Assembly (NCBI GenBank): GCA_902778325.1
Contig: CACYWZ010000003.1
Coordinates: 1-64,000, forward strand
Direction of reading: 5' to 3'
Source: an uncultured Spirochaetaceae bacterium
Lineage (GTDB): Bacteria; Spirochaetota; Spirochaetia; Treponematales; Treponemataceae
Length of the DNA stretch: 64,000 nucleotides
The notes under the pieces are model-generated. The model made no database searches and was not told the origin of the DNA. It was given only the letters and a program-made list of their open reading frames with translations. The translations under genes were made by a program, and so were the position numbers. Below are positions 7,314 to 64,000 of this stretch, piece by piece (within the stretch, counting starts at the first letter, position 1; every line of letters starts with the position of its first letter).

Positions 7314-7545
7314 GTGCAGGAGTGAATTCTAGAAGTAAAAAAGTGTCCTGCAACGTGCAGGAGTGAATTCTAGAAGTAAAAAAGCGTCCTGCAACGTGCA
7401 GGAGTGAATTCTAGAAGTAAAAAAGTGTCCTGCAACGTGCAGGAGTGAATTCTAGAAGTAAAAAAGGTTCCTGCAGCGTGCAGGAGTGAATTTTAGAAGT
7501 AAAAAAGTGTCCTGCAATGTGCAGGAGTGTTTTTTAGAAACAAAA
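7314..7545. repeat. tandem array A, 41-bp unit, six copies
   Basis: The heptamer GTGCAGG recurs at 7314, 7355, 7396, 7437, 7478 and 7519, exactly 41 bp apart each time. Every unit junction forms a perfect hairpin TCCTGCA-ACG-TGCAGGA (7-bp stem, 3-nt loop). The first five units differ at only a few positions; the sixth decays into GTTTTTTAGAAAC. No gene is seen inside. The array separates the divergent regulator and LRR genes. Confidence 0.95.
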
Positions 7546-7578
7546 CGTGAAAAAATCACGAGTGCCGATAAATAAAAA

Positions 7579-8550
7579 ATGAGCAACGAAGACAAAGAGT
7601 TTGAGAAAGCGAAGAAAAAAAAGAAACTTGAAGTGAGTAGCGCTGCGGCAAACGCTCGCATCGACGCGTTTTTTTCGGATATTGTGAAAAGGGCGTTTTA
7701 TTGCAACAGGGGAAAGGAGAAAATCACGTTCGGCTTTGACAGAGCCGACGGAACGGTGATCGAAGTTGCGCTTTCGACTGCCTGGTCGAGCGTGTGGATA
7801 GAGACTTTTAGGGATTTGGCAGAAAAACTCATTGCGGGCGCGAGTTTTGATGATGTAAAGATGTTCGACTGCGCGGCGACGCGAATTGATAACGTTGTGC
7901 TTTACACGCGACAAAAAGATGTGCTGAAGCGATGTCAAAGGCGAATTCGAAAAATCCGCATTCCTGACGGCATCACGGTGCTTTCTTCAGAAGCGTTCTC
8001 ATATTGCTATGACCTTGAGAGTGTGTTTATTCCGAAAAGCGTGAAGGACATACACGCGCGCTCTTTTTATCGCTGTAAATCGCTTGCAACGCTTTCGGTG
8101 GACGAGGAAAATCCGTATTTTTGTTCTGTTGGGAACACGCTTTACACGAAAGACAGGCAAAGCCTGATTTTTAGCCCTCCACTTGCAGAACCTATAATAG
8201 TTGACGGCGTGAAGCGGATTCGGAAAAATGCGTTTGCGTACAATTGCAAATTGACTGAGTTGATATTGCCGAAGAGTGTGGAAGTTATCGAGAGTCAGGC
8301 GTTTGAATGTTGCGATTCGCTTTGTAAAATCGAGTTGAATGAGGGGCTGAAGTCAATCGAAATGATGGCGTTTAATTCGTGCCATTTGCTAAAAGAGGTC
8401 GTGATTCCAAGCGGTGTTGAGGTTTTGCACAAAAGCACTTTCTATCTTTGTCCGACTTTGGAGAAAATCACGCTTCGAGGCAACACAATAACGATTGAGC
8501 CGAACGCCTTTTCTGAGTGCAAAAAATATATACAAATTGTAAGAGCATAA
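7579..8550 (+). CDS. leucine-rich-repeat (LRR_5/BspA-like) protein, cytoplasmic
   Basis: 323 residues. The C-terminal two thirds (about 122-320) is a run of LRR_5 repeats of the TpLRR/BspA type, with recurring I-P-x-G/S-V and A-F-x-x-C-x-x-L patterns (for example LPKSVEVIESQAFECCDSL). The N-terminus is charged (EKAKKKKK) and has no signal peptide or lipobox, unlike surface BspA proteins, so a cytoplasmic location is predicted. The stretch at about 20-120 is not recognised. There is no Shine-Dalgarno; a GCCGATAA box resembling the sigma-28 -10 element lies 7 nt before the ATG, but no matching -35 is seen. Function unknown; the fold suggests protein binding. Confidence 0.8.
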   Translation: MSNEDKEFEKAKKKKKLEVSSAAANARIDAFFSDIVKRAFYCNRGKEKITFGFDRADGTVIEVALSTAWSSVWIETFRDLAEKLIAGASFDDVKMFDCAATRIDNVVLYTRQKDVLKRCQRRIRKIRIPDGITVLSSEAFSYCYDLESVFIPKSVKDIHARSFYRCKSLATLSVDEENPYFCSVGNTLYTKDRQSLIFSPPLAEPIIVDGVKRIRKNAFAYNCKLTELILPKSVEVIESQAFECCDSLCKIELNEGLKSIEMMAFNSCHLLKEVVIPSGVEVLHKSTFYLCPTLEKITLRGNTITIEPNAFSECKKYIQIVRA

Positions 8551-8563
8551 TTTTTTAGGCAAC

Positions 8564-8602
8564 AAAAAGAGCCTGCTCCGTAAAGGGACAAGCTCTTTTT
8601 TG
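8564..8602 (+). terminator. terminator after the LRR gene
   Basis: AAAAAGAGC ... GCTCTTTTT stem followed by further T residues. It is directly joined to a dispersed palindromic element, and the same terminator-plus-element unit recurs at 10146-10250. Confidence 0.85.
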
Positions 8603-8611
8603 TCCGTGTCT

Positions 8612-8672
8612 GTCATTCCGAACTTGATTCGGAATCTATAAAACGCAGATGCTGAAACAAGTTCAGCATGAC
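8612..8672. repeat. dispersed two-hairpin element (GTCAT...ATGAC)
   Basis: 61 bp bounded by GTCAT and ATGAC, with hairpin TTCCGAA-CTTGA-TTCGGAA, a middle containing ATCT and AGAT, and hairpin ATGCTGAA-ACAAG-TTCAGCAT. A near-identical 61-bp copy lies at 10190-10250, and other copies at 20.1, 24.5-25.0, 34.8 and 43.5 kb. Confidence 0.85.
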
Positions 8673-8717
8673 GATAGTTTTTCCAGCATAATTTTCAAAT
8701 CACCCTCTCTTCACTTA

Positions 8718-9452
8718 TCAGCTTTTGAACTTCGGAGTCTCGGCAAGCGCTTTTGCAGCATTAAGAGCCTTTCGGGCGTTTTCGTTTGCGCTCCTCACCT
8801 CGCGACTGATTTCTGCGCTGAATCGCGAATACTTGTCCGCGTCAATCGTGGTCATCGCATTGATGTATGGCAAAACCGTGCTGTTCAAGAACTCGCGAAG
8901 CTCCTTTTTCAGAACTGTCGCGCTTTTCGCTCCGCTTACCTCCTGAGAGGCGCTGTTGTTCTGCACTTGAAGAGCCTTGAACGCTTCCTCGTCTGCTGTC
9001 AGCTGTGCAAAATACTCTTTTCCGCAGTGGATTTTTGCCAGAGCGCTTTGCATTTCCGCCGTCGACAAATCCTTTAGCATGCTTTCGATGTGGGCAGATT
9101 CGGTCAAGAGCTTTTCGCCTGTGATTTTGCGACCGTATTTGTTCATTATTTCAAGAACCTTTTTGCCTTCCTCCGCTTCTCCGTCGACAAGAGAAACCAA
9201 AGAAGCCTCGACCACCGTAAAGAAGTTTCGAATCGTCGTATCTCGTTTAGAGTCCGCCTCGTCCATATTGAGTGGGGCTGTAGACTTTTTGATTGCCACG
9301 ATTAAGCCATCTGCTCTTACAGCTAAATCAGAAAAATAGCCATTGAGTTTGTCGTCTTTCAAATCGTCTTTGAAAGACGCATGAACTCTTCCCAAAAGCT
9401 GCGAAACAGTCGCAATTTCTGCGGCAGATAAGATAGCAGCAACCGTATTCAT
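8718..9452 (-). CDS. hypothetical helical protein
   Basis: 244 residues from the ATG at 9452, chosen because TTGGAGGAA lies just upstream. It has no signal peptide, no membrane segment and an even spread of Ala, Leu, Lys and Glu, suggesting an all-alpha cytoplasmic protein (for example EVRSANENARKALNAAKA near the C-terminus). I do not recognise the family. It is a single gene flanked on both sides by repeats, which may mark an accessory locus. Confidence 0.75.
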   Translation of the reverse strand: MNTVAAILSAAEIATVSQLLGRVHASFKDDLKDDKLNGYFSDLAVRADGLIVAIKKSTAPLNMDEADSKRDTTIRNFFTVVEASLVSLVDGEAEEGKKVLEIMNKYGRKITGEKLLTESAHIESMLKDLSTAEMQSALAKIHCGKEYFAQLTADEEAFKALQVQNNSASQEVSGAKSATVLKKELREFLNSTVLPYINAMTTIDADKYSRFSAEISREVRSANENARKALNAAKALAETPKFKS

Positions 9453-9534
9453 TGTGTATTCCTCCAATAAAAGATTAGATACCCACAATTTACCACCAGA
9501 ATGCCCATAATGCAACTAAAAACAAAACTTTTAT

Positions 9535-9739
9535 GAGAAAACACACTTTTTAGCACCTAAATTATGAGTCCGTACGCGAAAACTCTCTTTTTAGCACCTA
9601 AAAAACGAGTCCATGCGCGAAAACTCTCTTTTTAGCACCTAAATTACGAGTCTGCACGCGAAAACTCTCTTTTTAGCACCTAAAAAACAAGTCCACACGC
9701 GAAAACTCACTTTTTAGGAGCCGAATTATGAGTCCATGA
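9535..9739. repeat. tandem array B, 41-bp unit, five copies
   Basis: TAGCACC (or TAGGAGC) recurs at 9551, 9592, 9633, 9674 and 9715, exactly 41 bp apart. The core of units 2 and 4 is the hairpin TTTTTAG-CAC-CTAAAAA (3-nt loop), and the flank (ACGCGAAAACTC) is conserved. Unrelated in sequence to array A but with identical period. From 9740 to 9805 nothing is recognised. Confidence 0.95.
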
Positions 9740-9805
9740 AATTTCAAGTGTGTTCAGTGGAGGTAAGCGTTTTTTTTACAAGTATTTTAGCCCGCCTTGT
9801 GCTGA

Positions 9806-10139
9806 GATAAATCTTTATCTATCGGAGTTATCCGGTGGTATGCTGTTGATAAATACAACTATGACAGTTTTGTTAACGAAGTTAGATTTCAAGTCGGATA
9901 TTTCACAGATGATCCTGTAATTGGATTCATTTTGTATGGGAAAGGAACTGAAGGAGAGATTGCATATTTTTCAAGAGATGGACTTAATTTGCGTTGGGAT
10001 TGGGGAGAACACAAAAACGGAGGGGTACAAATATTCTTTTATAATTGAACCTGATGGAACAGGGCTGTATTACGATTTTGGAGCTTCTACTGATGGGACT
10101 GCAAAGCCTAGAGGTATTTATCAAACTAAGAAGTTTTAA
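9806..10139 (+). pseudogene. broken gene remnant, unknown family
   Basis: An open stretch without a start codon runs from 9806 (KSLSIGVIRWYAVDKYN ...) to about 10020 (RWDWGEHKNGG), and the same protein appears to continue in the next frame (YKYSFIIEPDGTGLYYDFG) to a stop at 10139. A one-base shift near the G-rich stretch about 10018-10025 and loss of the 5' end explain this. Codon use is coding-like in both halves. I do not recognise the family; the C-terminal part looks like a small beta-rich domain. Confidence 0.65.
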
Positions 10140-10145
10140 AACAAA

Positions 10146-10179
10146 GAAGCCCTGCTCAGAAAGAACAAGGCTCTTTTTT
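10146..10179 (+). terminator. weak terminator-like hairpin, second copy
   Basis: An AGCC / GGCT stem followed by TCTTTTTT. It matches the terminator at 8564-8602 in sequence and in its position next to a two-hairpin element, but the stem is poorer. Confidence 0.5.
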
Positions 10180-10189
10180 GTCCGTGACT

Positions 10190-10250
10190 GTCATTCCGAA
10201 CTTGATTCGGAATCTATAAGACATAGATGCTGAAACGAGTTCAGCATGAC
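10190..10250. repeat. dispersed two-hairpin element, near-identical copy
   Basis: 61 bp, GTCAT to ATGAC, differing from the copy at 8612-8672 at a few positions only. It ends about 10 bp before the deoB stop codon. Confidence 0.85.
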
Positions 10251-10259
10251 AGTTGGTCG

Positions 10260-11450
10260 TTAATTAAGTTTGTCGAGGATTGAATAGCCGATTGTGTTTT
10301 CTGGCATCTTCAAGCCGAAATTGTCGAGGATTGTCGCGCCGATAACCGCGAATGTGTCAGTTTCTTCAAGCGCGCCGTTTCCCGTGAACTTCGGAGAATA
10401 AGCGATGAGCGGCACTTTCTCGCGTGTGTGGTCTGTGCCGTGGAAAGTCGGGTCGTTGCCGTGGTCTGCTGTAATCAAAAGCAAATCGTCCTCGCGCAAC
10501 ACCTTCAAAAGCTCGCCGAGTTTTACGTCGAACTTTTCGATTTCCTTTGCATATCCTTCAACATTGCGTCTGTGTCCCCAAAGCGCGTCAAAATCAACAA
10601 GGTTAACAAAACAAAGTCCGTCGAAGTCGCGCTGTGCCACTTCAATCGTCTGTTCCATGCCGTTCACAGAAGATTCTGAGTGTATCGCCTCTGTAACGCC
10701 TTCGCCGACGAAAATGTCGTTGATTTTGCCGATGGAAATCATATCCTTGCCCGCGTCTTTCAAAACATTGAGCGCAGTACGACCGAACGGCTTCACAGCG
10801 TAATCGTGGCGGTTTGCGGTGCGCTTGAACTCACCCTTTTTCTTTCCTACATAAGGACGAGCGATGACGCGACCAACTTTCCATTCGTCTTTCATCGTGA
10901 TTTCGCGCGCGATTTCGCAACAACGATAAAGCTCATCGAGTCCGAAAGTCTCCTCGTTACCACAAATCTGCAAAACGCTATCAGCCGAAGTGTAGACAAT
11001 CATGTGTCCCGTCGCGATTTCCTCTTCGGCGAGTTCGTCGAGAATGACCGTGCCTGAAGAACTCTTGTTGCCAATGACTTTGTGTCCTGTGCGCTTTTCA
11101 AGCTCGGCGATGAGCTCAGGCGGAAAACCTGTGTCGGTGAATGTAACAAAAGGCTTTGTTGTGTGCAAGCCCATCATTTCCCAGTGTCCCGTCATGGTGT
11201 CTTTGCCCACGCTCTTTTCGCGAAGTGAGCCATAATAGCCAAGTGGCTTTTCGATAGCAGGAACTTGCTTGAGCTTTTTCAAATTCGCCATACCGAGTTT
11301 CTGCAAGTTCGGGATTGTGAACGTGTCCATTCTCTCGCTGATGTGTCCGAGTGTATCACTTCCCACGTCGTTATAATCCGCTGCGTCTGGCTCTTCGCCA
11401 ATGCCGAGAGAGTCCATTACGATACAAAATATTCTTTTGAATTTAGCCAT
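10260..11450 (-). CDS. deoB: phosphopentomutase
   Basis: 396 residues, the normal DeoB length. It interconverts (deoxy)ribose 1-phosphate and 5-phosphate, linking nucleoside phosphorylase and DeoC. The alkaline-phosphatase-superfamily metal site is visible: Asp13 in [15 protein letters not shown] near the N-terminus and DHGNDP (329-334) with HGTDHTRE (337-344) near the C-terminus. Last gene of the udp-deoC-cdd-deoB operon, 9 nt after cdd. Confidence 0.97.
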
Positions 11451-11459
11451 TCTGTCTCC

Positions 11460-11891
11460 TTATGCCAAAGATTTTGGGCCAAAGCCGTCGGGCAAAACCT
11501 CTTTGAGAGTCTTCGCATAATACTCAGTTTTGCTTTTTGCCACAATAACGATGAATGTTTCGGGGTCACAAAACTCCATCATCGCCTGTCTGCAAACGCC
11601 ACATGGTGCGCAAAAATCCACCACATTACCTTCGTTTCCGCCAACAATCGCAATCGCCTTGAAGTTCTTTGCGCCCTCGCTCACCGCCTTGAAAAAAGCC
11701 GTGCGTTCTGCGCAGTTCGTAACGCCATAAGACGCATTTTCGATGTTGCAGCCACCCCAGATTTTTCCGTCAGCATCGAGCAATCCCGCGCCAACTTTCC
11801 AGTGAGAATACGGCGTATAGGCAAAACCGAGCATCTTGAACGCCTTGTCAATCAATTCGCTAACAGGAATTCCTGTCAAATCTGCACTCAC
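11460..11891 (-). CDS. cdd: cytidine deaminase
   Basis: 143 residues, homotetrameric-type Cdd. It deaminates (deoxy)cytidine to (deoxy)uridine using zinc; the ligand and proton-shuttle motifs TNCAERTA and [11 protein letters not shown] are both present. Its start overlaps the deoC stop by 4 nt, indicating coupling. In the operon it feeds uridine or deoxyuridine to the phosphorylase. Confidence 0.96.
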
Positions 11892-12547: not shown

Positions 12548-12553
12548 AATCTT

Positions 12554-13339: not shown

Positions 13340-13366
13340 AAAAACTCCATAAAAGTTTTAGCACCG

Positions 13367-13416
13367 ACAAAAAAAGCTCTTCACCGAAAGCGAACAAAAG
13401 CAATCAGGAAGAGCTT
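13367..13416 (-). terminator. terminator of the che operon
   Basis: Stem GAAGAGCTT / AAGCTCTTC (13408-13416 with 13374-13382) followed on the minus strand by a run of T residues. Confidence 0.88.
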
Positions 13417-13433
13417 CACAGAAGTAGCAAAAA

Positions 13434-13868: not shown

Positions 13869-13886
13869 ATTATATAACTCCTCCAG

Positions 13887-14378: not shown

Positions 14379-14422
14379 TTACCTTCTCCTGTATTGCTTG
14401 TACATCGACAACATAAATTCCA

Positions 14423-15862: not shown

Positions 15863-15877
15863 TCTAACTCCCTCTTA

Positions 15878-27068: not shown

Positions 27069-27150
27069 GTGTGTCGACTTAGCACTCAACAGTGTGTCGA
27101 CTTAGCACTCAACGGTGTGTTGACTTAGCACTCAACGATGTGTTGAGTCC
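27069..27150. repeat. tandem array I, 23-bp unit, about 3.5 copies
   Basis: GTGTGTCGAC / GTGTGTTGAC recurs at 27069, 27092 and 27115 and decays at 27138. Units carry GTTGA ... TCAAC complementary arms. A left-half dispersed element (GTCATTCTGAGCGG, 27052) abuts it. The gap 26878-27208 otherwise holds the promoter side of the outer-membrane protein gene and the terminator of the next gene. Confidence 0.85.
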
Positions 27151-34323: not shown

Positions 34324-34353
34324 ATATTACGAAAATCTGTCAAATGCGATGGC

Positions 34354-34411
34354 TGAGCGAAGTCGAAGTCAGCGCAATTCCATAAAGCGTCGCTCATTTC
34401 GACTTCGCTCA
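34354..34411. repeat. inverted repeat of the dispersed-element type
   Basis: TGAGCGAAGTCGAA (34354-34367) and TTCGACTTCGCTCA (34398-34411) are perfect 14-bp arms around a 30-bp centre. Confidence 0.8.
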
Positions 34412-34434
34412 ATGACCGATTTAAAAAAAATCGT

Positions 34435-34790
34435 TTTTATAAAGTCTTACAAAGCACATTCCGACTCACTGGCGGCGTTTATAAAGTCTTACAAAGCACG
34501 TTCCGACTCACCGACGGCATTTATAAAGTCTTACAAAGCGCATTCCGACTCACTGGCGGCGTTTGTAAAGTCTTACAAAGCATATTCCGACTCACCGACG
34601 GCGTTTATAAAGTCTTACAAACCTCATTCCGACTCACCGACGGCATTTATAAAATTATGGAAATGGCGTTCCGAGTCACTGGCGAGCTTTCCATGGTTGT
34701 GGAAAGGGCGTTCCGAGTCACTGGCGGGCTTTCCATGGTTATGGAAAGGGCATTCCGAGTCACTGGCGACGTTTCCTGATTTTTGGGAAA
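34435..34790. repeat. tandem array D, 42-bp unit, eight to nine copies with a core switch
   Basis: TTCCGA recurs at 34459, 34501, 34543, 34585, 34627, 34669, 34711 and 34753, exactly 42 bp apart. Early units carry the inverted repeat TTTGTAA-AGTC-TTACAAA (one unit perfect, others one mismatch); late units carry TTTCCAT-GGTT-ATGGAAA. Both arms changed together while the TTCCGA(C/G)TCACTGGCG flank stayed. Because 42 is a multiple of three, an open frame of 14-residue repeats runs through it by chance; no gene is supported. Confidence 0.93.
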
Positions 34791-34792
34791 AT

Positions 34793-34933
34793 GTCATTCT
34801 GAGCGGAGAACGGCGATTTAGCCGTTCGGAGTCGAAGAATCTGCTCCTTTTTTTTTCTAATGGCTTGGGCTTGTGGTTTTCTGGGCTAGATTCTTCGACT
34901 TCATTCGCTTACGCTCATTTCGCTCAGAATGAC
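34793..34933. repeat. large two-hairpin element (141 bp)
   Basis: GTCATTCTGAGCG ... CGCTCAGAATGAC ends, GTCGAAGAATCT and AGATTCTTCGAC inner arms, and an inner AACGGC / GCCGTT hairpin. A further direct repeat (AGAATGACACGGGGAGACCA) occurs at about 34926 and 35010. The gap 34272-35099 contains no gene. Confidence 0.85.
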
Positions 34934-35064
34934 ACGGGGAGACCATTTTGCATACGGTTTATTGGCGGAATGACACAATGCTTTCATTCGGCATATTGTC
35001 GGTTTTGCAGAATGACACGGGGAGACCATTCGGCATTGTCGGGTTGGCGGGGAGGAAGAGAGTT

Positions 35065-35092
35065 TTGCATTTTTTTCGATTTATGGTATGAT
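35065..35092 (+). promoter_or_regulatory. ybaK-family promoter, leaderless arrangement
   Basis: TTGCAT (35065-35070), 16-nt spacer, TATGAT (35087-35092), 7 nt, ATG at 35100. Confidence 0.6.
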
Positions 35093-35099
35093 GTTTTTT

Positions 35100-35588
35100 A
35101 TGAAAAAGACAAATGCAATGCGCATTCTTGACGGCGCAAAGATTAAATATGAGACGGCTTGTTACGATGACGACGGGGAGCACGCGCTTTCTCGCGGTGC
35201 GGCAGAGAAAACGGCGGAAAAGTTGGGAATCAATCCTGCGCAGGTTTTCAAGACTATCGTGATGAGGACGGAAACGAAGGAAGTTGTTGTTTTTTGTCAG
35301 AGCGCAATTCACGAGATAAATCTCAAAAAGGCGAGGGCGGCTTGTGGCGCGAAGGACATAAATCCTGTGAAAAGCGAGGAGCTTCTGGGCTTGACGGGCT
35401 ATGTTCGTGGCGGCTGCTCTCCTCTTGGAATGAAGAAGAAGTTTCGCACTTTCATTGACGAGAGCGCGAGGTCGTTCGAGAAAATCTATGTGAGCGCGGG
35501 TGTTCGCGGTGAGCAGCTTTGTCTTAATCCTGAGGATTTGGCGTCTGCTTGTTCTGCTGCTTTTTGTGATTTGGTTCTTGAGGGCTAA
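35100..35588 (+). CDS. ybaK: YbaK/EbsC-family aminoacyl-tRNA deacylase
   Basis: 162 residues from the ATG at 35100. YbaK-type enzymes hydrolyse mischarged Cys-tRNA(Pro). Family marks are QVFKTIVMRTE (the conserved Lys), the YVRGGCSPLGMKKKF loop, and the C-terminal VYVSAGVRGEQL-like strand (here IYVSAGVRGEQLCLNPEDL). The ATG is chosen over two upstream ATGs because those lie inside the -10 box. Followed after 2 nt by a lipoprotein gene. Confidence 0.9.
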   Translation: MKKTNAMRILDGAKIKYETACYDDDGEHALSRGAAEKTAEKLGINPAQVFKTIVMRTETKEVVVFCQSAIHEINLKKARAACGAKDINPVKSEELLGLTGYVRGGCSPLGMKKKFRTFIDESARSFEKIYVSAGVRGEQLCLNPEDLASACSAAFCDLVLEG

Positions 35589-38189: not shown

Positions 38190-38530
38190 AAATGTTTTTT
38201 TTCTGTTTTCTTAAGAAAGTATTGAAACAATAAATGTTTTTTCGCGTTTTCTTAAAAAGGTATTGAAACAACAAATGTTGTAACCCTGTTTTCTTAAAAA
38301 AGTGTTGAAACAATAAATGTTTTTTGCCGTTTTCTTAAGAAAGTATTGAAAAACTAAATAGGTTAACCCTGTTTTCTTAAAAAAGTGTTGAAAAACTAAA
38401 TAGTTTAACCCGTTTTCTTAAGAAAGTATTGAAAACCTAAATAGGTTAACCTCATTTTCTTAAGAAAGTATTGAAAACCTAAATAGGTTAGCCCCATTTT
38501 CTTGAAAAAGTATTGAAAAACTAAATGACG
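38190..38530. repeat. tandem array E, 41-42-bp unit, eight copies
   Basis: TTTTCTT recurs at 38206, 38247, 38289, 38330, 38372, 38413, 38455 and 38497, steps of 41 and 42. The core is the palindrome TTTCTTAAGAAA, in some units degraded to TTTCTTAAAAAA; the flank (GTATTGAAAA.CTAAATAGG) is conserved. It adjoins the terminator of the next gene. Confidence 0.93.
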
Positions 38531-43286: not shown

Positions 43287-43502
43287 TATCATAACGATTG
43301 CGCAAATTCATCAAAACAGGCTTCGTTTTCGTAACGATTGTAGCCCAGAACAGTTTCCTTAAATCGTTACCATAACGATTTAAGACTATTCGGATTTCTC
43401 AAATCGTTATGGTAACGAAACCCCGCTTTTTAAATTTCCTCAAATCGTCAAAATAACGATTGCCGTTTTTCGCTTTGGCACAAATCGTTATTTTAACGAT
43501 GG
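43287..43502. repeat. tandem array F, 40-41-bp unit, six copies
   Basis: TAACGA recurs at 43292, 43332, 43373, 43413, 43454 and 43494 (steps 40/41). Units form hairpins AAATCGTTA-CCA-TAACGATTT, TCGTTA-TGG-TAACGA and ATCGTTA-TTT-TAACGAT: the stems share sequence while the 3-nt loops differ. The array begins right after the PC4 terminator and lies between convergent genes. Confidence 0.93.
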
Positions 43503-51225: not shown

Positions 51226-51230
51226 AACAA

Positions 51231-51299: not shown

Positions 51300-51685
51300 T
51301 CCTTTCCCCAACATCGTTTTTCTTCTCCTTCTGCTCATTTTTTATCATATTGACCTCAAAATCTCTCTTTTCAACGTCAAAACACATCATTTTGACCTCG
51401 TTTTTATTGCTTTTCACGTCAAAATACATTATTTTCATCTTGCAAATCACTTTTCCAACGTTACAAAATGTTTTTGCAACATCACAAATTTATTTTGCAA
51501 GATGACAAAACACTTTTGCAACGTGATTTTTATCATTTTTCACATCACAAACACTGTTTGCAACATCACAAATCTTCTTTGCAACATCACAAATCTTCTT
51601 TGCAACATCACATATCATATTTGCAACATCACAAACTCTTTTTGCGACGTTATTCATCGCAATATCAACATCACAATCCGCATTG
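51300..51685. repeat. tandem array G, 21-bp unit, about 18 copies
   Basis: GCAACATCAC-type landmarks step by 21 bp (51455, 51476, 51497, 51518, 51560, 51581, 51602, 51623, 51644). Upstream units (51350, 51371) keep the phase with changed sequence (TTGACCTC, TCAACGTC). Complementary ends (TTTTG/CAAAA, TTTTGA/TCAAAA) are seen in several units. Between 51690 and 51825 a short AACATTCAGGA repeat occurs and no gene is supported. Confidence 0.9.
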
Positions 51686-51821
51686 TCATGATTAAGGCTT
51701 GTTTCCTTGACTTCAAGGCGACTGAAAAGGGGATTAAGGAGGGCGAAAAGAACATTCAGGAGAACATTCAGGAAGGCTGGAAAAACATTCAGGAAGAGCG
51801 GAAGAAAGTCGTTTTGGGCAA

Positions 51822-51864
51822 AAAAAATATCATTCCGAGCGCCCTCGAAATGATATTTTTGCTT
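51822..51864 (-). terminator. terminator of the acidic-protein gene
   Basis: Minus strand AAATATCATTTCGAG ... CTCGGAATGATATTT, a long near-perfect stem, followed by T residues. Confidence 0.9.
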
Positions 51865-51879
51865 TATGAATATAAGCGA

Positions 51880-52173
51880 TTAGTCCTCGTCGTCGAAATC
51901 GTCGTCCTGCTCGTCTTCAACATCGAAATATTCGTCTTCCCTGTAAGAAAACGAACCGTAGCCGTCCTCCGGCTCGATGTCATCGAAACTTTCCTCTAGC
52001 GTATCAACTTCATCGTCCTGCAAATCATCAAAACTGATGTCGTCTTCATCATCTTCAAAGTCCGATTCATCATCGAAATCGTCATCATAATCGTCAAAAC
52101 GTCCGCCTGAACCATATTCATCATCGTAAGCAAATCCGAATGAATACTCTGCCATCTCGCTTTCACTGAACAT
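51880..52173 (-). CDS. highly acidic small protein
   Basis: 97 residues from the ATG at 52173 (GCAGGAGTG upstream). Beyond the first about 25 residues it is almost entirely Asp, Glu, Phe, Tyr and Ser (for example FDDYDDDFDDESDFEDDEDD), with no membrane segment. It must be very acidic and probably disordered; such proteins can mimic nucleic acid or act as charge buffers, but no function can be assigned. It has its own promoter and a strong terminator, so expression is likely real. Its D-D-F style resembles the acidic inserts of the exporter and outer-membrane protein at 25-31 kb. Confidence 0.8.
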   Translation of the reverse strand: MFSESEMAEYSFGFAYDDEYGSGGRFDDYDDDFDDESDFEDDEDDISFDDLQDDEVDTLEESFDDIEPEDGYGSFSYREDEYFDVEDEQDDDFDDED

Positions 52174-55658: not shown

Positions 55659-55753
55659 CTTTTTCTTTCAATCAAGTAGCTAAGTGTATTGTAAGTGTAT
55701 TCCAAGAGTATTCTAAAGGTGTGTAAATAAAGATTTAGCGGTAAGGAACATAT

Positions 55754-57877: not shown

Positions 57878-59550
57878 AATATTTCAAAAAAATGCCACTC
57901 GCCTTTGTTGCTATTTGTTTTTTTTGCGCACTTATTGGCGGGTGTGCTTCTTTTGGTGCAAATCCTAAAAATGTTTATCAGCCGCTAAACTACACAGAAG
58001 CAGATGCTGTAAACACAGAAGTGCAGCGAATTGAGAATATTCGCTCTGAAAATAGTGTGGAAGCGCTTTGGCGCGCTGTGATACTTGACCGTTCTATAAA
58101 AGAGCGTGTTTTTGATGAAGAGACCGAGGAAATCAGAAAAAATGTTTCACAGGTATTGGAAAAATGCTTTGAAAGCTCTGTTGAAACATATAATACCTTA
58201 GTTGAAGAGAAAAAGTATGCAAAAGCAATCAGCGTTCGACAATCGCTAGAAACTTGCGGATACAAAGAATCTCTTTCAATGAGCATTGATGAACTTTCTT
58301 CTTTGGCTCGTCCTGAGTCTATTTTTCCAAAAAAAGCGCAAAATGCAGATTCCAGCATTTCAAAAGTGATATCTGGAACTGTTACAGTATGGGTTGACCG
58401 CGGAATTGCCGTTCAAAATGGAATGGGCTACGCAGACCGTGTTATCGGCTCTGGCTTTTTTATCTCAAATGATGGCTATCTCATAACAAATCATCACGTT
58501 ATCGAGGATTTGGTTGATAAAAAAAGCCAAAAATATTCAAAATTGTTCATAAAACTTGCTTCAGACAACGAAACAAGAATTCCTGCGAAAGTCATAGGCT
58601 ATGATAGCGTTCTTGATTTAGCGTTGTTAAAAGTTGAAATCGATGTTCCTTATGTTTTTAGCGCAGGTTCATCCTCTGACCTAGATGTTGGCGACAAAGT
58701 TTATGCGATTGGCTCTCCTGTCGGCTTGGAGCGCACTCTTACAGATGGAATTATTTCTGCAAAAGAGAGAAAACTCAGTTCTGTGGGCAATATTTTGCAG
58801 ATTTCTGCTGCTGTAAACCCTGGAAATTCTGGAGGTCCTCTTATAGATGAAAAGGGCAGAGTTCAGGCTGTTGTTTTTGCGGGAATGCTTCAGTACGAAG
58901 GGTTGAACTTTGCAATTCCTGTTGAATATCTCAATGCGGAGCTCCCTCTTTTGCTTGCAGGAGGAGAAAGACAACATTCTTGGATTGGTGCATTTGGAAA
59001 GCCAAAGAAAGACATGGGCAAAAACATCGGAGTTGAGCTTCTTTATGTGATGCCGGGCGGAAGTGCGAGCAGAGCAGGACTAAAAACTGGCGATATAATC
59101 ACAGCGATAAACGGCATTGATGCAAAAACAAATGATGATTTGTTTAATATATATGTTTCCCTTTTGCCTGGCACAGTCGTGAATGTCACGACAACCGACA
59201 TTGATGGCAACTCTTTGGACTATCCTGTCTATTTGACAGAGCGACCAAAATCACCGGGATATGAAGTGTATAGCCGAGATGTTGTTGCAAACTCGTTTTA
59301 TCCAATCTTTGGAATGAAGTTGCAAACATTATCTGGAAGCAAAAAATATACAATATCAGAACTCATAAATGGCGGAATAGCCGATGAGTCTGGCTTTACA
59401 GACCATGACCCCGTCGAAATAGCACAGATTTTGTTCAATGAAGACAATAGCGCAATATCGGCGACACTATATACCAAAAAGAAAAAAAACGGATATATCG
59501 ATGTTGCAATAGGACTTACGACATCGCTTGACAGTCAGTATTATTTCTAA
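57874..59550 (+). CDS. HtrA/DegP-like serine protease lipoprotein with PDZ domain
   Basis: 558 residues. Lipoprotein signal ending LIGGC (Cys24); a helical N-terminal region (about 40-155); trypsin-like protease with His208 (TNHHVI), Asp248 (SVLDLALLKV) and Ser319 (NPGNSGGPLI); PDZ domain about 380-465; and an unassigned C-terminal part (about 470-558). It should act at the inner or outer membrane on misfolded envelope proteins. The long N-terminal helical extension and membrane anchoring are unusual for HtrA and suit partnership with the upstream TPR protein. Confidence 0.93.
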   Translation: MKYFKKMPLAFVAICFFCALIGGCASFGANPKNVYQPLNYTEADAVNTEVQRIENIRSENSVEALWRAVILDRSIKERVFDEETEEIRKNVSQVLEKCFESSVETYNTLVEEKKYAKAISVRQSLETCGYKESLSMSIDELSSLARPESIFPKKAQNADSSISKVISGTVTVWVDRGIAVQNGMGYADRVIGSGFFISNDGYLITNHHVIEDLVDKKSQKYSKLFIKLASDNETRIPAKVIGYDSVLDLALLKVEIDVPYVFSAGSSSDLDVGDKVYAIGSPVGLERTLTDGIISAKERKLSSVGNILQISAAVNPGNSGGPLIDEKGRVQAVVFAGMLQYEGLNFAIPVEYLNAELPLLLAGGERQHSWIGAFGKPKKDMGKNIGVELLYVMPGGSASRAGLKTGDIITAINGIDAKTNDDLFNIYVSLLPGTVVNVTTTDIDGNSLDYPVYLTERPKSPGYEVYSRDVVANSFYPIFGMKLQTLSGSKKYTISELINGGIADESGFTDHDPVEIAQILFNEDNSAISATLYTKKKKNGYIDVAIGLTTSLDSQYYF

Positions 59551-59557
59551 GAAAATC

Positions 59558-59586
59558 AAAGCCGCGCCGAAAGACACGGCTTTTTG
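59558..59586 (+). terminator. terminator of the TPR-HtrA pair
   Basis: AAAGCCG / CGGCTTT stem, TTTTT tail. Confidence 0.88.
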
Positions 59587-59627
59587 CGCATAGAACGAAT
59601 ATTCATAGATTTTAGGAGATAGAAATT

Positions 59628-61430
59628 ATGGCAGAGATGAAATATAAGCGCAACTTTTGTATTGTTGCACACATTGACCATGGCAAATCCACTCTTTCTG
59701 ACCGTCTTATTGAAAAGGCGCGAATTATTGACCAGCGTCAAATGCAGAACCAAATCCTCGACAGCATGGACATTGAACGCGAGCGCGGTATCACGATAAA
59801 AAGCCAAGCCGTAACTATTCCTTATCACGCAAAAGACGGAAATGATTATGAACTTAACTTCGTTGACACACCAGGGCACGTCGATTTTAGCTATGAAGTC
59901 AGCCGCGCTATTGCGTCTTGCGAAGGTGCTTTGCTCTTGATTGACGCGACTCAGGGCGTAGAGAGCCAGACCGTGAGCAACTTGTATATGGCGATGGAGC
60001 ATGATTTGACGGTTGTGCCTGTTGTGAACAAAATCGATTTGCCGAGCGCAGACGTTGAAAGCGTGAAAAAGCAAATTGACCACGACCTCGGACTTGATTC
60101 CGCCGATGTGCAACTCGTTTCTGCAAAAACGGGCGAGGGCGTTGATGAGCTTTTGGAGGCGATTGTAACCAAATTCCCCGCTCCGACAGGCGACGTAAAT
60201 GCACCGATGAGAGCTTTGATTTTTGATTGCCACTATGATATTTATCGCGGTGTTGTTGTTCATATTCGAATGATAGACGGCAAAATCAAGGTTGGCGACA
60301 CAATCCGCTTTATGAACTCACAGGCGGAATATCGCGTGGAGCAAGTCGGTATTTTTAAGATTACGCTCGAAGAAAAGAAAGAACTTGAAGCAGGCGATGT
60401 CGGCTATATTATCGCAGGCATTAAGACCGTCAGCGATGTTCGCGTTGGTGAAACAATCACGAATGTTGCAAACCCTGCAACAGAGGCTTTAGCTGGCTTC
60501 AAAGATGTAAAGCCTGTTGTCTTCTCATCGATTTATCCGATGGACAGCGATGATTATCAGGAACTCAAAGACAGCATGGAAAAGCTCAAGCTCAACGACG
60601 CAAGCCTTGTTTACGAAAAAGACAATTCGCTTGCTTTGGGCTACGGCTTCCGCTGCGGCTTTTTGGGCTTGCTTCACTTGGAAATCATCGAGGAACGCCT
60701 TGAGCGCGATTATGACCAGTCCGTCATTTTCACCGCTCCGAGCGTCCGCTATCTCATTCACTTAACGGGCGGCGAAGACGTTTATATCGATAACCCGTCA
60801 GAATATCCCGAAGGCAAAATCCAGAGCGCAGAAGAGCCGTATATCCGTGCTAACATCATCACGCCGTCTGAGTATCTTGGCTCAATTATGAAGCTTTGCC
60901 TTGAAAAGCGCGGCGAGCAAAAAAATATGCAGTATCTCGACACAAAGCGCGTCGAACTCACTTATGAAATGCCGCTTGCAGAAGTTTTGTTCGACTTCTA
61001 CGACAAACTCAAGAGCTACAGTCGCGGATACGCCAGCTTTGATTACGAGGTTATCGATTATCGACCGACAGAACTCGTCAAAATCGATATTCTCATAAAC
61101 GGAAAGCCTGTTGACGCTTTGGCACAGCTCGCCTATAAGCCAGAAGCCCGCGACCATGCGCTCAAAGTCGTTACAAGACTCAAGGGCGAAATCGCGCGAC
61201 AGCAGTTCAAAATCGCAATACAGGGCGCAATCGGCTCTCAAGTCATCGCTCGCGAAACAGTCAATCCTGTGAGAAAAGACGTTCTTGCAAAATGCTACGG
61301 TGGCGACATCACGCGAAAGAGAAAACTGCTCGAAAAGCAGAAAGAGGGAAAGAAGCGAATGAAGCTCATCGGCGATGTGGAACTCCCTCAGAGCGCATTC
61401 CTTGCCGTATTGAAAGAGAAAGAAGAATAA
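59628..61430 (+). CDS. lepA: elongation factor 4 (LepA)
   Basis: 600 residues, full family length. G1 AHIDHGKSTL, effector ERERGITIKSQAV, G3 DTPGHVDF, G4 NKIDLPSA; then EF-G-like domains II, III and V and the LepA-specific C-terminus (QKEGKKRMKLIGDVELPQ). It acts on ribosomes during initiation or stress. TAGGAG ribosome site. Confidence 0.98.
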   Translation: MAEMKYKRNFCIVAHIDHGKSTLSDRLIEKARIIDQRQMQNQILDSMDIERERGITIKSQAVTIPYHAKDGNDYELNFVDTPGHVDFSYEVSRAIASCEGALLLIDATQGVESQTVSNLYMAMEHDLTVVPVVNKIDLPSADVESVKKQIDHDLGLDSADVQLVSAKTGEGVDELLEAIVTKFPAPTGDVNAPMRALIFDCHYDIYRGVVVHIRMIDGKIKVGDTIRFMNSQAEYRVEQVGIFKITLEEKKELEAGDVGYIIAGIKTVSDVRVGETITNVANPATEALAGFKDVKPVVFSSIYPMDSDDYQELKDSMEKLKLNDASLVYEKDNSLALGYGFRCGFLGLLHLEIIEERLERDYDQSVIFTAPSVRYLIHLTGGEDVYIDNPSEYPEGKIQSAEEPYIRANIITPSEYLGSIMKLCLEKRGEQKNMQYLDTKRVELTYEMPLAEVLFDFYDKLKSYSRGYASFDYEVIDYRPTELVKIDILINGKPVDALAQLAYKPEARDHALKVVTRLKGEIARQQFKIAIQGAIGSQVIARETVNPVRKDVLAKCYGGDITRKRKLLEKQKEGKKRMKLIGDVELPQSAFLAVLKEKEE

Positions 61431-61446
61431 GGCTTCCAAAAGAGAG

Positions 61447-61480
61447 AATCCCGAATATCGCACGTATTCGGGATTTTTTT
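61447..61480 (+). terminator. terminator between lepA and the P-II-like gene
   Basis: AATCCCGAATA / TATTCGGGATT stem with a long T-run; it lies between convergent genes. Confidence 0.93.
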
Positions 61481-61498
61481 GTTCGGTTGAAAAAGCGA

Positions 61499-62143
61499 TT
61501 ATTTCTTTCCAAGCGTCGTAAAATCTTCGACAGCGCACGAGTAGGCAATGCCCATTCCAGGCTCTTTGAGGCACTTCATCTCTTCAATTGCGGAAATGAC
61601 AGCGTCCTTTTTGTCAGAGCTGACGACCATGATGAGCATCTCCTTTTCGGGAACGATGTGCATGCCGAAAAATCTCGCGTCCGTCTCGCGTGCCGTTCCT
61701 CTCGCGCTCACCACCGTGCCGCCGCCTGCGCCAGCGTTTCGTGCCGCCGCCATAACGTCGTCCGCGTAGCCTTTGTTGACAATCACCGTTATCATCGTGT
61801 TCTCAAAATTAGTGTTTGACATATTTTCTCCTCCGCTTCTTTTTCCGCCTTTGTAAACCGTGCCAAGATTGACGCAAAGCAGTTCGCCGAAGCCTTTTTT
61901 CTGCGTTTTTGAGGCGTTCACAATCGCGTTTGAAACGCTTTCTTTAACGTCATTTCTGACAACCATAAGAACAATGTCCCGCGAAAACTCCCCAAGCCCA
62001 AGAATTGCCGCGACGTTTGATTTCGCAAGCGCTCGTCCGCTCATCACCGTTCCGCCCTGACAGCCGGATTCCATTGCGGCGCGGATAAGGCTTTCCCCCC
62101 TGTCGTGAGGGATTATGCTGATTAAAAGTTTGTAGTCTTCCAT
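61499..62143 (-). CDS. tandem P-II-like regulator
   Basis: 214 residues from the ATG at 62143 (AAGGAG 8 nt upstream). Two P-II/GlnB-like domains in one chain: residues about 3-100 (YKLLISIIPHDRGESLIRAA; GCQGGTVMSGRA) and about 112-212 (TMITVIVNKGYADDVMAAAR; GAGGGTVVSARGT). The uridylylated-Tyr T-loop of true GlnB is absent. It is encoded directly after a DUF1538 membrane protein, a known partnership, and probably gates it in response to an unidentified ligand. Confidence 0.88.
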   Translation of the reverse strand: MEDYKLLISIIPHDRGESLIRAAMESGCQGGTVMSGRALAKSNVAAILGLGEFSRDIVLMVVRNDVKESVSNAIVNASKTQKKGFGELLCVNLGTVYKGGKRSGGENMSNTNFENTMITVIVNKGYADDVMAAARNAGAGGGTVVSARGTARETDARFFGMHIVPEKEMLIMVVSSDKKDAVISAIEEMKCLKEPGMGIAYSCAVEDFTTLGKK

Positions 62144-62155
62144 TCGCTTCACTCC

Positions 62156-63712
62156 TTATTTGCGCTGTGTTTTTGCCTTGAAGATTATGCCGAGGACTTG
62201 GATTGCAATAAGAGGTGTCATTGCAACGAGCGCGATAACGCCAAACGCGTCGACAGCGGGATTCCCGCCTGAGGCGTTCGAAGCTCCGAGCGTGAACGAC
62301 ATTATGAAAGTGCTTGTCATAGGCCCTGAGGCAACACCTCCTGAGTCAAAGGCGATTCCCGTGAAAAGCTTCGGGCAAAAGAGCGTCATCAAAAGAGAAA
62401 GCGCGTAGCCCGGAATTAAAATGTACCAAAGCGAAAAGCCAAAGATGACTCGCGCCATTGAAATCCCGATTGAAAGCGCAACCCCGATGCTCAGAGCGCT
62501 CAACAGCGTGCGCCTTTTTATCGCGCCTCCCGAAACGCTTTCAACTTGGTCAGTGAGAACCCAGACAGCAGGCTCTGCGCTCACGACGACAGCGCCGAAA
62601 ATGCAGCCGACAGCGATAAGCAAAATCTGTGGAACGACAGACGGAATGTTGAGCGCTTTTTCGATTTCGCCCGCCGCGTCAAACAAAACAAGGCTCTTTT
62701 TCCCCGAAATTGCAATGCGCCCAAGAACTTCGCCCAGCGCTTTTCCGGCGTTCATAAAGCCTCCCTTCGCGCCAAGCAAAAAAAGAACAAGACCCGCGAA
62801 ACTGAAAAAAAGACCGCGCACCATACGAATGACTTGGAAAGGCGGCATCTTTATCAAAAAGATTTGAAAAATCACAGCCATCATCACAAGCGGAAAAAGA
62901 GCGCTTGAAACTTCGTGCAATATTTCAGGAAGAAGGCGGGCGAACACCGAAATCCCCTCCGCGTCCAGCATCTCATCGCCTGAAATAGAGCCAGATGCGT
63001 CGGGAGCAGAAAACGACAAGATTATGCCGTACAAACAAACCGCCGCAACAGGACCAACAGAGGCAATCCCCGTAAGCCCGAAACTGTCGTCCTCGCTTTC
63101 CACGCCGCTTTTCGACGCCTTCGAGCGAACTGCGGCAACACCAACGCCGAGCGCCATTATGAAAGGAACAGTCATCGGCCCTGTCGTCGCGCCTCCCGAA
63201 TCGAACGCAACACCCTGAAACGTCGGCGGAGTCAAAAAGGCGAGCGCAAAAACAATCGCGTACGAAATGATGAGAACAAGACGTAGCGGAATTGAGAGTA
63301 CCGTGCGAAGAATGCCGATTGCCACGAACAGCGCAACCCCTGCGGCAATCATAAAGATTAGCGCCCATTTTGAGACGTTCGGGGCAACAGAGCGCACTTG
63401 GTCAGCAAGAACCTGAACATCAGGCTCGGCAATCGTTATCATAAAGCCAATTAAAAATGAGACGACAAGCAAAAGCGGCAAACTCCGCTTTGAAGTGAGC
63501 GCTGCTCCGCTTCGCTCTCCGATTGGCAAAATACCCAGGTCAACCCCGAAAAGAAATACCGTCAGCCCGATTATAACGAGGATAGAGCCAGCAAGAAAAA
63601 GCAACAGCGTATTCAGCGGCAAAGGCGCAATGGTGAGCGAAAGAATGAGAACCAGCGCCATAATTGGAGCGACAGAATACACTGTTTCCTTGAATTTTTG
63701 AAAGAAGTTCAA
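62156..63712 (-). CDS. DUF1538 membrane protein (duplicated permease-like)
   Basis: 518 residues from a TTG start with AGGAGG 5 nt upstream. About 12 membrane segments in two repeats, each with the same signature: GVAFDSGGATTGPMT in the first half and GIAFDSGGVASGPMT in the second, plus matching ISIAEPDVQVLADQV / VSAEPAVWVLTDQV-type stretches. Function unknown; an internally duplicated transporter is likely. The next gene, 12 nt downstream, is the double P-II-like protein, so stoichiometry may match the two halves. Confidence 0.88.
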   Translation of the reverse strand: MNFFQKFKETVYSVAPIMALVLILSLTIAPLPLNTLLLFLAGSILVIIGLTVFLFGVDLGILPIGERSGAALTSKRSLPLLLVVSFLIGFMITIAEPDVQVLADQVRSVAPNVSKWALIFMIAAGVALFVAIGILRTVLSIPLRLVLIISYAIVFALAFLTPPTFQGVAFDSGGATTGPMTVPFIMALGVGVAAVRSKASKSGVESEDDSFGLTGIASVGPVAAVCLYGIILSFSAPDASGSISGDEMLDAEGISVFARLLPEILHEVSSALFPLVMMAVIFQIFLIKMPPFQVIRMVRGLFFSFAGLVLFLLGAKGGFMNAGKALGEVLGRIAISGKKSLVLFDAAGEIEKALNIPSVVPQILLIAVGCIFGAVVVSAEPAVWVLTDQVESVSGGAIKRRTLLSALSIGVALSIGISMARVIFGFSLWYILIPGYALSLLMTLFCPKLFTGIAFDSGGVASGPMTSTFIMSFTLGASNASGGNPAVDAFGVIALVAMTPLIAIQVLGIIFKAKTQRK

Positions 63713-63814
63713 TCATGCCTCCTGTGCATTTTCCAGTAAGTATAGGAATTACTTATAAAACGGTCAATGCGGACAGGAAAAATGAAAGATGTGTTTTCAA
63801 AGCAAAACGAAAAT

Positions 63815-64000
63815 GTCGCAAACTGGAATTTATTGACCTCTTCACTCTTGCAAAAGCGTTTAAACTGGAATTTATTGCCTTCTTCAAAGTGGGGCAGCCT
63901 TTAAACTGGAATTTATTCGCTTCTTCACTCTTGCATGAGCGTTTAAACTGGAATTTATTGCTTTCTTCAAAGTGAAGTAGCGTTTAAACTGGAATTTATT
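63815..64000. repeat. tandem array H, 41-42-bp unit, five copies, continues past the window
   Basis: AAACTGGAATTTATT recurs at 63820, 63862, 63903, 63945 and 63986 (steps 42, 41, 42, 41). The core palindrome is GTTTAAAC; the rest alternates CTTCACTCTTGCA and CTTCAAAGTG types. 63713-63814 shows nothing else. Confidence 0.9.

Follow-up and report, generated by a model that had tools for sequence, protein, structure and literature searches.

The window, a 64-kb stretch from the genome of an uncultured, Treponema-like gut bacterium of the Spirochaetaceae (G000; 94% complete), carries the following tandem arrays of short palindromes, none of which is assigned a strand.

7314 to 7529: 41-bp array of 5.3 units, with the dyad TCCTGCA-nnn-TGCAGGA every 41 bp and a weak second dyad at half a unit
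9537 to 9736: 41/82-bp array of 4.9 units, called by Tandem Repeats Finder (TRF), with the dyad TTTTTAG-cac-CTAAAAA
19757 to 20070: 41-bp array in two halves between convergent genes, with TTCCC-gtttt-GGGAA and a CAAATG-type dyad
27069 to 27143: 23-bp array of 3.3 units, of the minor class, with dyads GTTGA / TCAAC 11.5 bp apart
34436 to 34776: 42/126-bp array with a near-constant half of CATTCCGACTCACTGGCGGCG type, in a family of 7 array rows
34925 to 35036: degenerate 42-bp array adjoining a dispersed repeat of AGAATGACA type
38190 to 38527: 41/42-bp array (TRF 42/83/125) of 8 units, with steps of 41, 42, 41, 42, 41, 42 and 42 bp
43321 to 43500: five dyads of AATCGTTA-nnn-TAACGATT type, centred at 43330, 43371, 43411, 43452 and 43492, with steps of 41/40/41/40 bp
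51380 to 51645 (TRF 51443-51645): 21/42-bp array of A/T-rich dyads with changing arms
63820 to 64000: 41/42-bp array (TRF 41/83), called by TRF and truncated by the window end

The first-pass annotation had reported nine arrays with their steps, and all nine stand. TRF recovers those at 7.3, 9.5, 19.8, 27.1, 34.4, 38.2, 51 and 63.8 kb; the one at 43.3 kb, which TRF does not call and in which the sequence between dyads is visibly unrelated, is borne out by its evenly stepped centres. The 7.3-kb array lies between divergent genes, a LacI-family gene (minus strand) and an LRR_5 gene (plus strand), and is matched 6 more times in the genome, at 5 places. At 9537..9736, a weaker dyad, GAGT(12)ACTC, is found 20.5 bp off (letters read by eye). 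GTAGAAAATCTATCGA takes over from the TTCCC-gtttt-GGGAA dyad in the second half of the 19.8-kb array with the register unchanged, and the dyad half at 34436..34776 changes from TTTATAA..TTACAAA to CTTTCCA..TGGAAAG. In the 38.2-kb array, TTTCTTAAGAAA dyads are combined with AACCTA-aa-TAGGTT dyads at a distance of about 21 bp, the latter with compensatory changes, and the dyad centres of the 51-kb array (51386, 51428, 51470, 51512 and 51554) fall every 42.0 bp.

By both TRF and dyad positions, the intergenic arrays of about 41 bp first seen in the window are real and genome-wide. Scanning 807 kb of readable DNA with TRF gave 150 arrays, 99 with a period of 40–43 bp (double and triple periods included), 31 with 20–24 bp and 20 others. 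With the window left out the counts are 89, 30 and 19, and with four stretches picked for matching the 7.3-kb array also left out they are 82, 27 and 17 in 672 kb. The smallest periods are 40 bp (4), 41 bp (50), 42 bp (29) and 43 bp (1) in the main class and 21 bp (20), 22 bp (3), 23 bp (13) and 24 bp (5) in the short class, with none at 25–39 bp. A dinucleotide shuffle, one per stretch over 855 kb, yielded 0 TRF rows, and a chance origin was rejected on this. Similarly, when 42 kb of intergenic DNA from the first 464 kb is autocorrelated, peaks appear at 41 (0.322), 42 (0.313), 82–84, 123–126 and 165–168 bp and weakly at 21 bp, with no signal at 31 or 52 bp in the same sequence (0.266 and 0.264; median 0.267).

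Whatever its sequence, an array usually has a unit spanning two or four helical turns of DNA. Unit-to-unit steps of 40, 41, 42 and 43 bp number 19, 184, 157 and 6, with a mean of 41.41 bp, or 4 × 10.35 bp (n = 366; the unit splitter permitted only ±2 around the TRF period); together with half-unit dyads at about 20.5 bp, this makes the period quantised. Arrays of 23–24 bp form a second, minor class whose length is not an integral number of helical turns. A coding-repeat reading was rejected, as 41 is not divisible by three and most arrays are intergenic; 12 of 130 array rows overlap predicted frames and remain included in the totals of 130 and 150. At L027:12513-12719, a repeat without a dyad lies inside an open frame.

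The array units carry short palindromes with centres 41 or 42 bp apart, and the short inverted repeat previously noted in most units is indeed there. Independently of TRF, pairs of similar dyads number 81 at 40–43 bp, 4 at 30–39 bp and 6 at 44–79 bp. Of 78 arrays, 18 have a second, unlike dyad scoring at least 5 half a unit away, where 1.8 would be expected, and this brings the basic step to about 20.7 bp; the best second dyad lies at 20–21 bp in 20 of the 78 and elsewhere in 58 (e.g. at 16 bp in 9 and at 10–11 bp in 17). Dissimilar dyads are 20–22 bp apart in 22 cases versus 1.6 in shuffles, and also cluster at 10, 17, 32 and 58 bp, the spacings of 17 and 58 bp being out of phase. Many arrays have their dyad centres on a lattice with steps of about 20.7 bp, with every step used (21-bp arrays) or two dyads alternating (some 41/42-bp arrays).

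The palindrome arms and their spacing are conserved, and the remainder of the unit drifts. Mismatch between adjacent units (42 arrays) is 0.04–0.13 at 3–7 bp from the dyad centre, 0.49 at 10–11 bp, 0.18–0.20 at 16–17 bp and 0.43 at 20 bp; with the centre set by the first unit only, later units (60 arrays) give 0.11–0.20, 0.38–0.42, 0.21–0.22 and 0.38 at the same distances, a profile shaped in part by the common descent of the units. Symmetric changes of dyad sequence with the register retained were found at L265 and L261. In two alignments counted, 0 of 500 shuffles reached the observed paired cells, cells altered on both sides or covariation score; the number of pairs altered on both sides was unremarkable (equally high in 271 and 82 of 500 shuffles), as was that of additional pair types (495 and 82 of 500). 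Arm mismatches in tandem-gene contexts comprise 79 of GU type versus 72 of AC type, so there is no sense-strand bias, as expected for DNA-level sites. The arms are commonly pyrimidine-left/purine-right, with G/C at ±10.5 bp; this is not treated as universal because purine-left arms occur among the arrays of another genome of the genus (G213). The composition profile, read by eye, has a 20.7-bp pattern and no clear 10.4-bp one, on which simple curvature was rejected. Non-coding copies outside arrays exist for 9 of 54 array dyad motifs and for none of the other 45; they total 27 versus 1.4 expected (3.7 with scrambled arms), and 13 of them are one motif, TATACA-nnn-TGTATA.

The arrays had been described as unrelated in sequence, which is the case for 32 single arrays and not for the remaining 98 of 130, which group into 24 families, each occurring at no fewer than two loci. 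Adjacent heterologous arrays are sometimes out of register (L260 15851 vs 16002). With respect to genes, arrays are fewest in divergent gaps (15 of 70, versus 26 of 62 convergent gaps) and located away from gene starts; between tandem genes, 39 of 54 are closer to the 3' end of the upstream gene. Terminator-like sites are equally frequent behind genes with and without arrays (Fisher p 0.58 and 0.51), and a terminator reading was set aside for this lack of association; of 56 gene ends with both, 32 have the site upstream of the array.

Arrays change fast, and the sampled sister species are mostly without them. The first-pass annotation had named absence from sister genomes as evidence against its proposal, and no 40–43 bp array is present in the 743 kb sampled from 25 further genomes of the genus; 41/42-bp arrays are clearly present, with sequences differing from those of G000, in G213, G082 and G133, and G163 has one weak case. 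One array has 7 units in G213 and 9 in G082, and another differs between the two by one 41-bp gap, with an identity of 86.5% versus 96.7% in its flanks (masked letters excluded). An IspE tree places G000 and G213/G133 separately. This second genus branch, with arrays of other sequences, suggests as a candidate agent behind the arrays something able to gauge distance along DNA. The earlier proposal of such a measure, with helical phasing, fits the quantised period and the other-sequence 41/42-bp ruler elsewhere in the genus; it does not fit the 23–24 bp class.

None of the four protein families searched (PF01797, PF00078, PF00216 and PF01381) separates array-bearing from array-less genomes. The REP-associated Y1 transposase (PF01797; G082 left out of this search) has 0 matches in G000 and G133, 3 in G213 and some in array-poor G018, G099, G045 and G210. 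Reverse transcriptase (RVT_1) matches occur in 6 of 16 genomes searched and in none of the array-bearing G000, G213, G082 and G133, by which reverse-transcriptase-made repeats were rejected. HU-family matches are most numerous in G082 (6) and number 1–4 elsewhere, with no link to arrays, and HTH_3 matches in G000 (42) are not raised, the 15 remaining genomes having 6–47. Among 668 predicted proteins, a search for paralogues listed 8 clusters with at least three members each; the only cluster recognisable by eye as DNA-binding consists of four short XRE-like proteins. Rfam returned only tRNA for the window (gathering score) and no match for L022 and L260 (E 0.01). Titles and abstract openings among the literature matches listed, subscription papers excluded, gave no account of such arrays in Treponema.

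We tentatively read the arrays, with a probability of about 0.4, as phased dyad sites held in register by one or more putative bound dimeric proteins. The arrays would be DNA-level minisatellites of two-fold symmetric dyad sites, on which the putative protein(s) could sit cooperatively on one helix face, two or four turns apart. Selection for such a nucleoprotein lattice would preserve arms and length, with units gained, lost and homogenised, and arrays copied to new intergenic sites, by unequal exchange or slippage. Given that most arrays follow gene 3' ends, the most likely role would be to package or insulate the chromosome locally, rather than to control promoters. Speaking for a protein lattice are the quantised period, the dyads at half-unit positions, the conserved arms, the register kept through symmetric changes, the recurrence of the ruler with other sequences in G213, G082 and G133, the unit-number differences between G213 and G082 and the lack of sense-strand bias. 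Counting against it are the dozens of arm sequences per genome, hard to fit to one sequence-specific protein; the 45 motifs without an outside non-coding copy, unlike ordinary operators; the four protein families that do not separate the genomes; the unremarkable counts of doubly altered pairs and pair types; and the 23–24 bp class, the off-phase dyad spacings, the fast change of arrays and the few sampled sisters with arrays. A bolder proposal, possible but less likely than not, is a geometry-based, sequence-free element that accepts any palindrome centred on the two-turn lattice, with a protein or machine that reads symmetry and spacing instead of a motif building and maintaining hundreds of arrays, and two genus branches having gained the ruler independently.

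A close rival to phased sites, and one we consider quite possible, is a minisatellite with a built-in ruler: palindromes amplifying themselves without cellular function, through replication or repair by hairpin-assisted slippage or arm-equalising template switching, whose geometry sets the 21/41.5-bp length. We know of no process that yields a 41.5-bp step, whole-unit copying alone does not produce conserved arms amid a drifting unit, and the loop inversion expected of template switching accounts for 4 overlapping counts out of 205 differing loops, all from a single array (L015:17151). Such self-amplification would, however, accommodate the many palindromes tolerated, the scarcity of motif copies outside arrays, the rapid change between G213 and G082 and the avoidance of promoter sides, and equalisation of inverted-repeat arms by template switching is already described in the accessible parts of two papers (PMC8604942, PMC7202029). 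Mobile palindromic repeats, either REP/BIME/REPIN elements moved by the REP-associated transposase or a minisatellite MITE resembling BrickBuilt, a 23-nt intergenic tandem repeat in the part of its description available (PMC4596501), are improbable. Their intergenic placement, even spacing, alternating dyads and families across loci would suit, as would the transposase matches in G213; however, the transposase has no match in G000 and G133 and some in array-poor genomes, and there are dozens of sequences rather than one family. A comparison of flanks, confounded by neighbouring arrays, gave no clear common leader or tail.

Two further readings have very little probability. RNA hairpins in 3' untranslated regions, acting in stability, processing or termination, would explain arm covariation and the proximity to gene 3' ends, but the sense strand lacks a GU preference (although a two-strand structure would look alike), the hairpins are modest (median of −4.5 kcal/mol for the best 20-nt window, falling below −5 in 41% of 99 arrays), the loops of several dyads measure 0–2, and neither the terminator-like sites nor Rfam lends support. 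Ordinary operators of many transcription factors, each grown into a homotypic cluster, are about equally improbable: conserved arms, the LacI-family gene adjoining the 7.3-kb array and the excess of outside copies agree with them, yet array remnants could explain those copies, nearly half of which are one motif. Further, arrays are rarest in divergent gaps and located away from starts, most motifs have no solitary non-coding copy, the lattice register survives sequence switches and the HTH_3 count is ordinary.

Among known systems, plasmid iterons and partition sites are tandem protein-binding sites about two helical turns apart, at one origin or centromere per replicon. The arrays resemble them in a spacing of about two turns and differ in being symmetric, of differing sequences and at many intergenic places. 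Stoperators are located in short intergenic gaps. In mycobacteriophages, they are described in the accessible text as dispersed repressor sites stopping transcription (PMC9283540); they are asymmetric single sites, whereas the arrays are phased dyads. BrickBuilt of Porphyromonas gingivalis has, in the available part of its description, imperfect copies at 19 loci and a leader and tail with inverted ends; its unit length is close to the minor 23–24 bp class and it too forms intergenic tandem arrays at many loci, but as described there it is one sequence family with no 41-bp class, whereas here the main class is 40–43 bp with many sequences. CRISPR is characterised by identical repeats, unique spacers and cas genes; the array units vary, and the whole unit is shared in most arrays shown. 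Proteins that bind REP/BIME elements include gyrase and IHF. These elements, in the portion of the account accessible, are regularly spaced palindromes of alternating orientation, with more than 100 copies per genome, that bind several proteins (PMC2817692). Like them and REPINs, the G000 arrays are palindromic and evenly spaced, with alternation in part of the arrays; unlike them, they comprise many palindromes rather than one conserved family, lack a REP-associated transposase match in this 94% complete genome and, compared with REP/BIME, keep to a quantised period of 20.7/41.4 bp. Intergenic repeats of bacteria are as a rule recognised through their sequence; what the arrays share is a helix-set length and two-fold symmetry, with sequence nearly free. 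The implication is a hitherto undescribed nucleoprotein lattice or else a mutational process that has a two-turn ruler built in. Either idea lends itself to direct testing, since one genus contains both array-bearing and array-poor species.

The draft genome under study (G000; 3.35 Mb, 173 contigs, 94% complete) was analysed from the window, which is the first 64 kb of contig C3, and sampled stretches, together totalling 855 kb (807 kb of readable letters), mostly contig starts, with four stretches picked for matching the 7.3-kb array (window 7314-7529). Tandem arrays were called with TRF at a score of 60, and the 40-43 bp class counts doubles and triples of the period. The 150 arrays comprise 99 of this class, 31 of 20-24 bp and 20 others; without the window and the four picked stretches, 672 kb held 82, 27 and 17, respectively. 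The smallest periods were 41 (50 arrays), 42 (29), 40 (4), 43 (1), 21 (20), 22 (3), 23 (13) and 24 bp (5), and none of the 150 fell at 25-39 bp. Autocorrelation of 42 kb of intergenic DNA from the first 464 kb had maxima at 41-42, 82-84, 123-126 and 165-168 bp, a weak one at 21 bp and no signal at 31 and 52 bp. Dinucleotide-shuffled stretches (one shuffle each) yielded no arrays. The shared period of about 41 bp, or half of it, that had been noticed in the window is genome-wide. Steps of 41 and 42 bp are intermixed inside arrays (184 and 157 of 366; mean 41.41). Of the 855 kb, arrays take up 21.1 kb; among the 315 intergenic gaps that measure 60 bp or more, 95 contain arrays. Array-overlapping open frames at window 51502-51999 and 34349-35131 are unlikely to be genes but could be annotated as such in error by automatic pipelines.

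The inverted repeat that the first-pass annotation described within array units was recovered as dyads, that is, short palindromes with arms typically of 5-9 bp and loops of 0-8 bp (8 bp being the largest loop allowed in the search). Detected independently of any preset period, centres of similar dyads formed 81 pairs at 40-43 bp, compared with 4 at 30-39 bp and 6 at 44-79 bp. Distances between dissimilar dyads had maxima at 20-22 bp (22 versus 1.6 shuffled) and 60-63 bp (19 versus 0.6), with lesser maxima at 10, 17, 32 and 58 bp. A second, different dyad scoring at least 5 lay within 1 bp of the half-unit in 18 of 78 arrays versus 1.8 expected from shuffling bases outside the first dyad, same-family arrays not being independent in this comparison. 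The best second dyad was at 20-21 bp in 20 of the 78 (8.3 expected), at 10-11 bp in 17 (11.3), at 16 bp in 9 (8.2) and at 13-15 bp in 3 (13.6); the half-unit rule is therefore strong, not general. We read the basic step as ~20.7 bp, two turns of B-DNA, with one dyad per step in 21-bp arrays and two dyads in alternation in some 41/42-bp arrays. An 84-bp higher-order repeat at L015:17151-17319, whose dyad loop inverts between AATAT and ATATT from unit to unit, was the sole array found by a loop-inversion test.

Mismatch between neighbouring units (42 arrays) was 0.04-0.13 at 3-7 bp from the dyad centre, 0.49 at 10-11 bp, 0.18-0.20 at 16-17 bp, where the arms of a second dyad would be expected, and 0.43 at 20 bp. 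When the centre was taken from the first unit only, later units of 60 arrays gave 0.11-0.20, 0.38-0.42, 0.21-0.22 and 0.38 at the same distances. Both measurements thus indicate that arms and spacing are kept while the remainder of the unit drifts, which is unlike the outcome of plain duplication and decay. At L265:14365-14804 the dyad switches from AATTCCAaaacTGGAATT to AATTATGAaaTCATAATT on an uninterrupted 41/42-bp lattice of dyad centres, and in stretch L261 TTTTCC..GGAAAA is replaced by TTGGGAttTCCCAA with the register kept. Cells changed on both sides numbered 13 in L265 and 7 in the 38.2-kb array (window 38190-38527). Paired cells, two-side-changed cells and covariation score were reached in 0 of 500 shuffles in both alignments, while pairs changed on both sides (271 and 82 of 500 shuffles as high, respectively) and further pair types (495 and 82) were unremarkable; with few, related units, these counts are not probabilities. 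Across 51 aligned arrays, 35 of 2135 cells were compensatory versus 3-6 with partners slid by 1-3 columns, a control handicapped by dyad centres having been picked for pairing.

The arrays are read as acting at the level of DNA rather than RNA. Sense-strand mismatches in tandem-gene contexts were 79 G-U-type versus 72 A-C-type, and the best 20-nt window folded at a median of -4.5 kcal/mol (99 arrays). Terminator-like sites were equally common behind genes with and without arrays; where a gene end had both (56 cases), the site lay upstream of the array in 32. In Rfam searches the tRNA was the sole match within the window, and stretches L022 and L260 had none.

The first-pass view that sequences are unrelated between arrays stands for 32 of 130 array rows, which were single by blastn, and fails for the other 98, which fall into 24 families of 2-8 loci each (87 of 112 loci). 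Outside arrays, 54 array-dyad motifs had 27 non-coding copies (1.4 expected; 3.7 for scrambled arms), 13 of them from one motif, with none for 45 motifs; coding DNA held 6 (3.6 expected; 7.1 scrambled). The non-coding surplus may represent array remnants or genuine single sites. Arrays occupied 26 of 62 convergent, 54 of 183 tandem and 15 of 70 divergent gaps (convergent versus divergent, p 0.014; versus tandem, p 0.085), and 39 of 54 tandem-gene arrays were closer to the upstream gene's 3' end. Dispersed palindromic repeats of the GTCATTCTGAGCGGAG...GTCGAAGAATC and GGTCATTGAGC...GTCGAAATG types adjoin arrays (window 34793-34943; L009:16700-16870); such repeats are common across gut bacteria. 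Also, 11 paralogous proteins (median 625 aa) in the 855-kb sample form one family (L023:11357-13708, L025:3327-4667, L265:14830-16812), and at least two of them are encoded immediately beside arrays.

By IspE-like protein, the closest named loci are from Treponema and Spirochaetaceae MAGs (at most 49% identity), several labelled goat, yak or rumen, and the closest genome of the genus has 56% identity. The expectation of arrays in sister genomes was borne out in part. Arrays of 40-43 bp were found in G213 (7 in 179 kb), G082 (1 in 10 kb) and G133 (1 in 83 kb), with one weak 43-bp case in G163 (120 kb), and by the same criterion in none of 25 other same-genus genome samples (743 kb; 6-80 kb each), samples so small that a genome scored negative may yet hold arrays. 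The same 25 samples held 5 arrays of 20-24 bp and 10 others. None of 40-43 bp occurred in 20 same-order stretches (386 kb), and the single one at the 21 nearest IspE loci (351 kb), in L134, is probably coding, with alternative periods that are multiples of three. Two arrays are common to G213 and G082 at matching places: one has 7 versus 9 units and 77% aligned identity versus 93-96% across most surroundings, and the other differs by one 41-bp gap, with 86.5% identity versus 96.7% in the flanks, masked letters excluded. At L294:2259-2362 and L234:1124-1357, a region only partly alignable, a 41-bp array in G213 faces a 24-bp array (CACCCCTATAAGGGTGAGACATAC) in G082, and one array may have been replaced by another. 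The 23-24 bp class (~2.2 turns), in which dyads are frequent (L262:4652, L265:3656-3990, L245:9639, L144:3245), was found in G000, G213 and a named goat-rumen Treponema MAG. The IspE tree groups G000 with G154 and G133 with G213, and array presence must change twice on well-supported branches, as scored on 34 rows of which 15 lack array sampling, with G082 absent and G163 scored as array-less. The occurrence of the same ruler with different sequences in two parts of the tree suggests that it was gained twice, or that it is an old trait which was lost several times.

The arrays themselves plainly show tandem amplification and homogenisation. Since arms and spacing persist amid drift and the register survives sequence switches, our tentative preference (probability roughly 0.4) is for a model in which dyads on one face of the helix would be selected for, putative dimers would bind them, and arms and spacing would be kept by that selection. 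Only a little less probable is a palindromic minisatellite that amplifies itself and has its own ruler, a reading favoured by the wide variety of palindromes, the rarity of solitary sites and the rapid turnover of arrays. Y1 transposase was found in G213 and not in G000, RVT_1 was likewise not found in G000, and HU and HTH_3 gene numbers did not track with arrays across the genomes searched.

Judging by titles and abstract openings, no description of comparable arrays in Treponema was found among the papers listed in literature searches. Regular spacing and alternation are shared with BIMEs, which differ in having one or few sequence families plus a transposase. BrickBuilt is an intergenic minisatellite, a form shared with the arrays here, and its 23-nt unit is close to the minor 23-24 bp class (PMC4596501).
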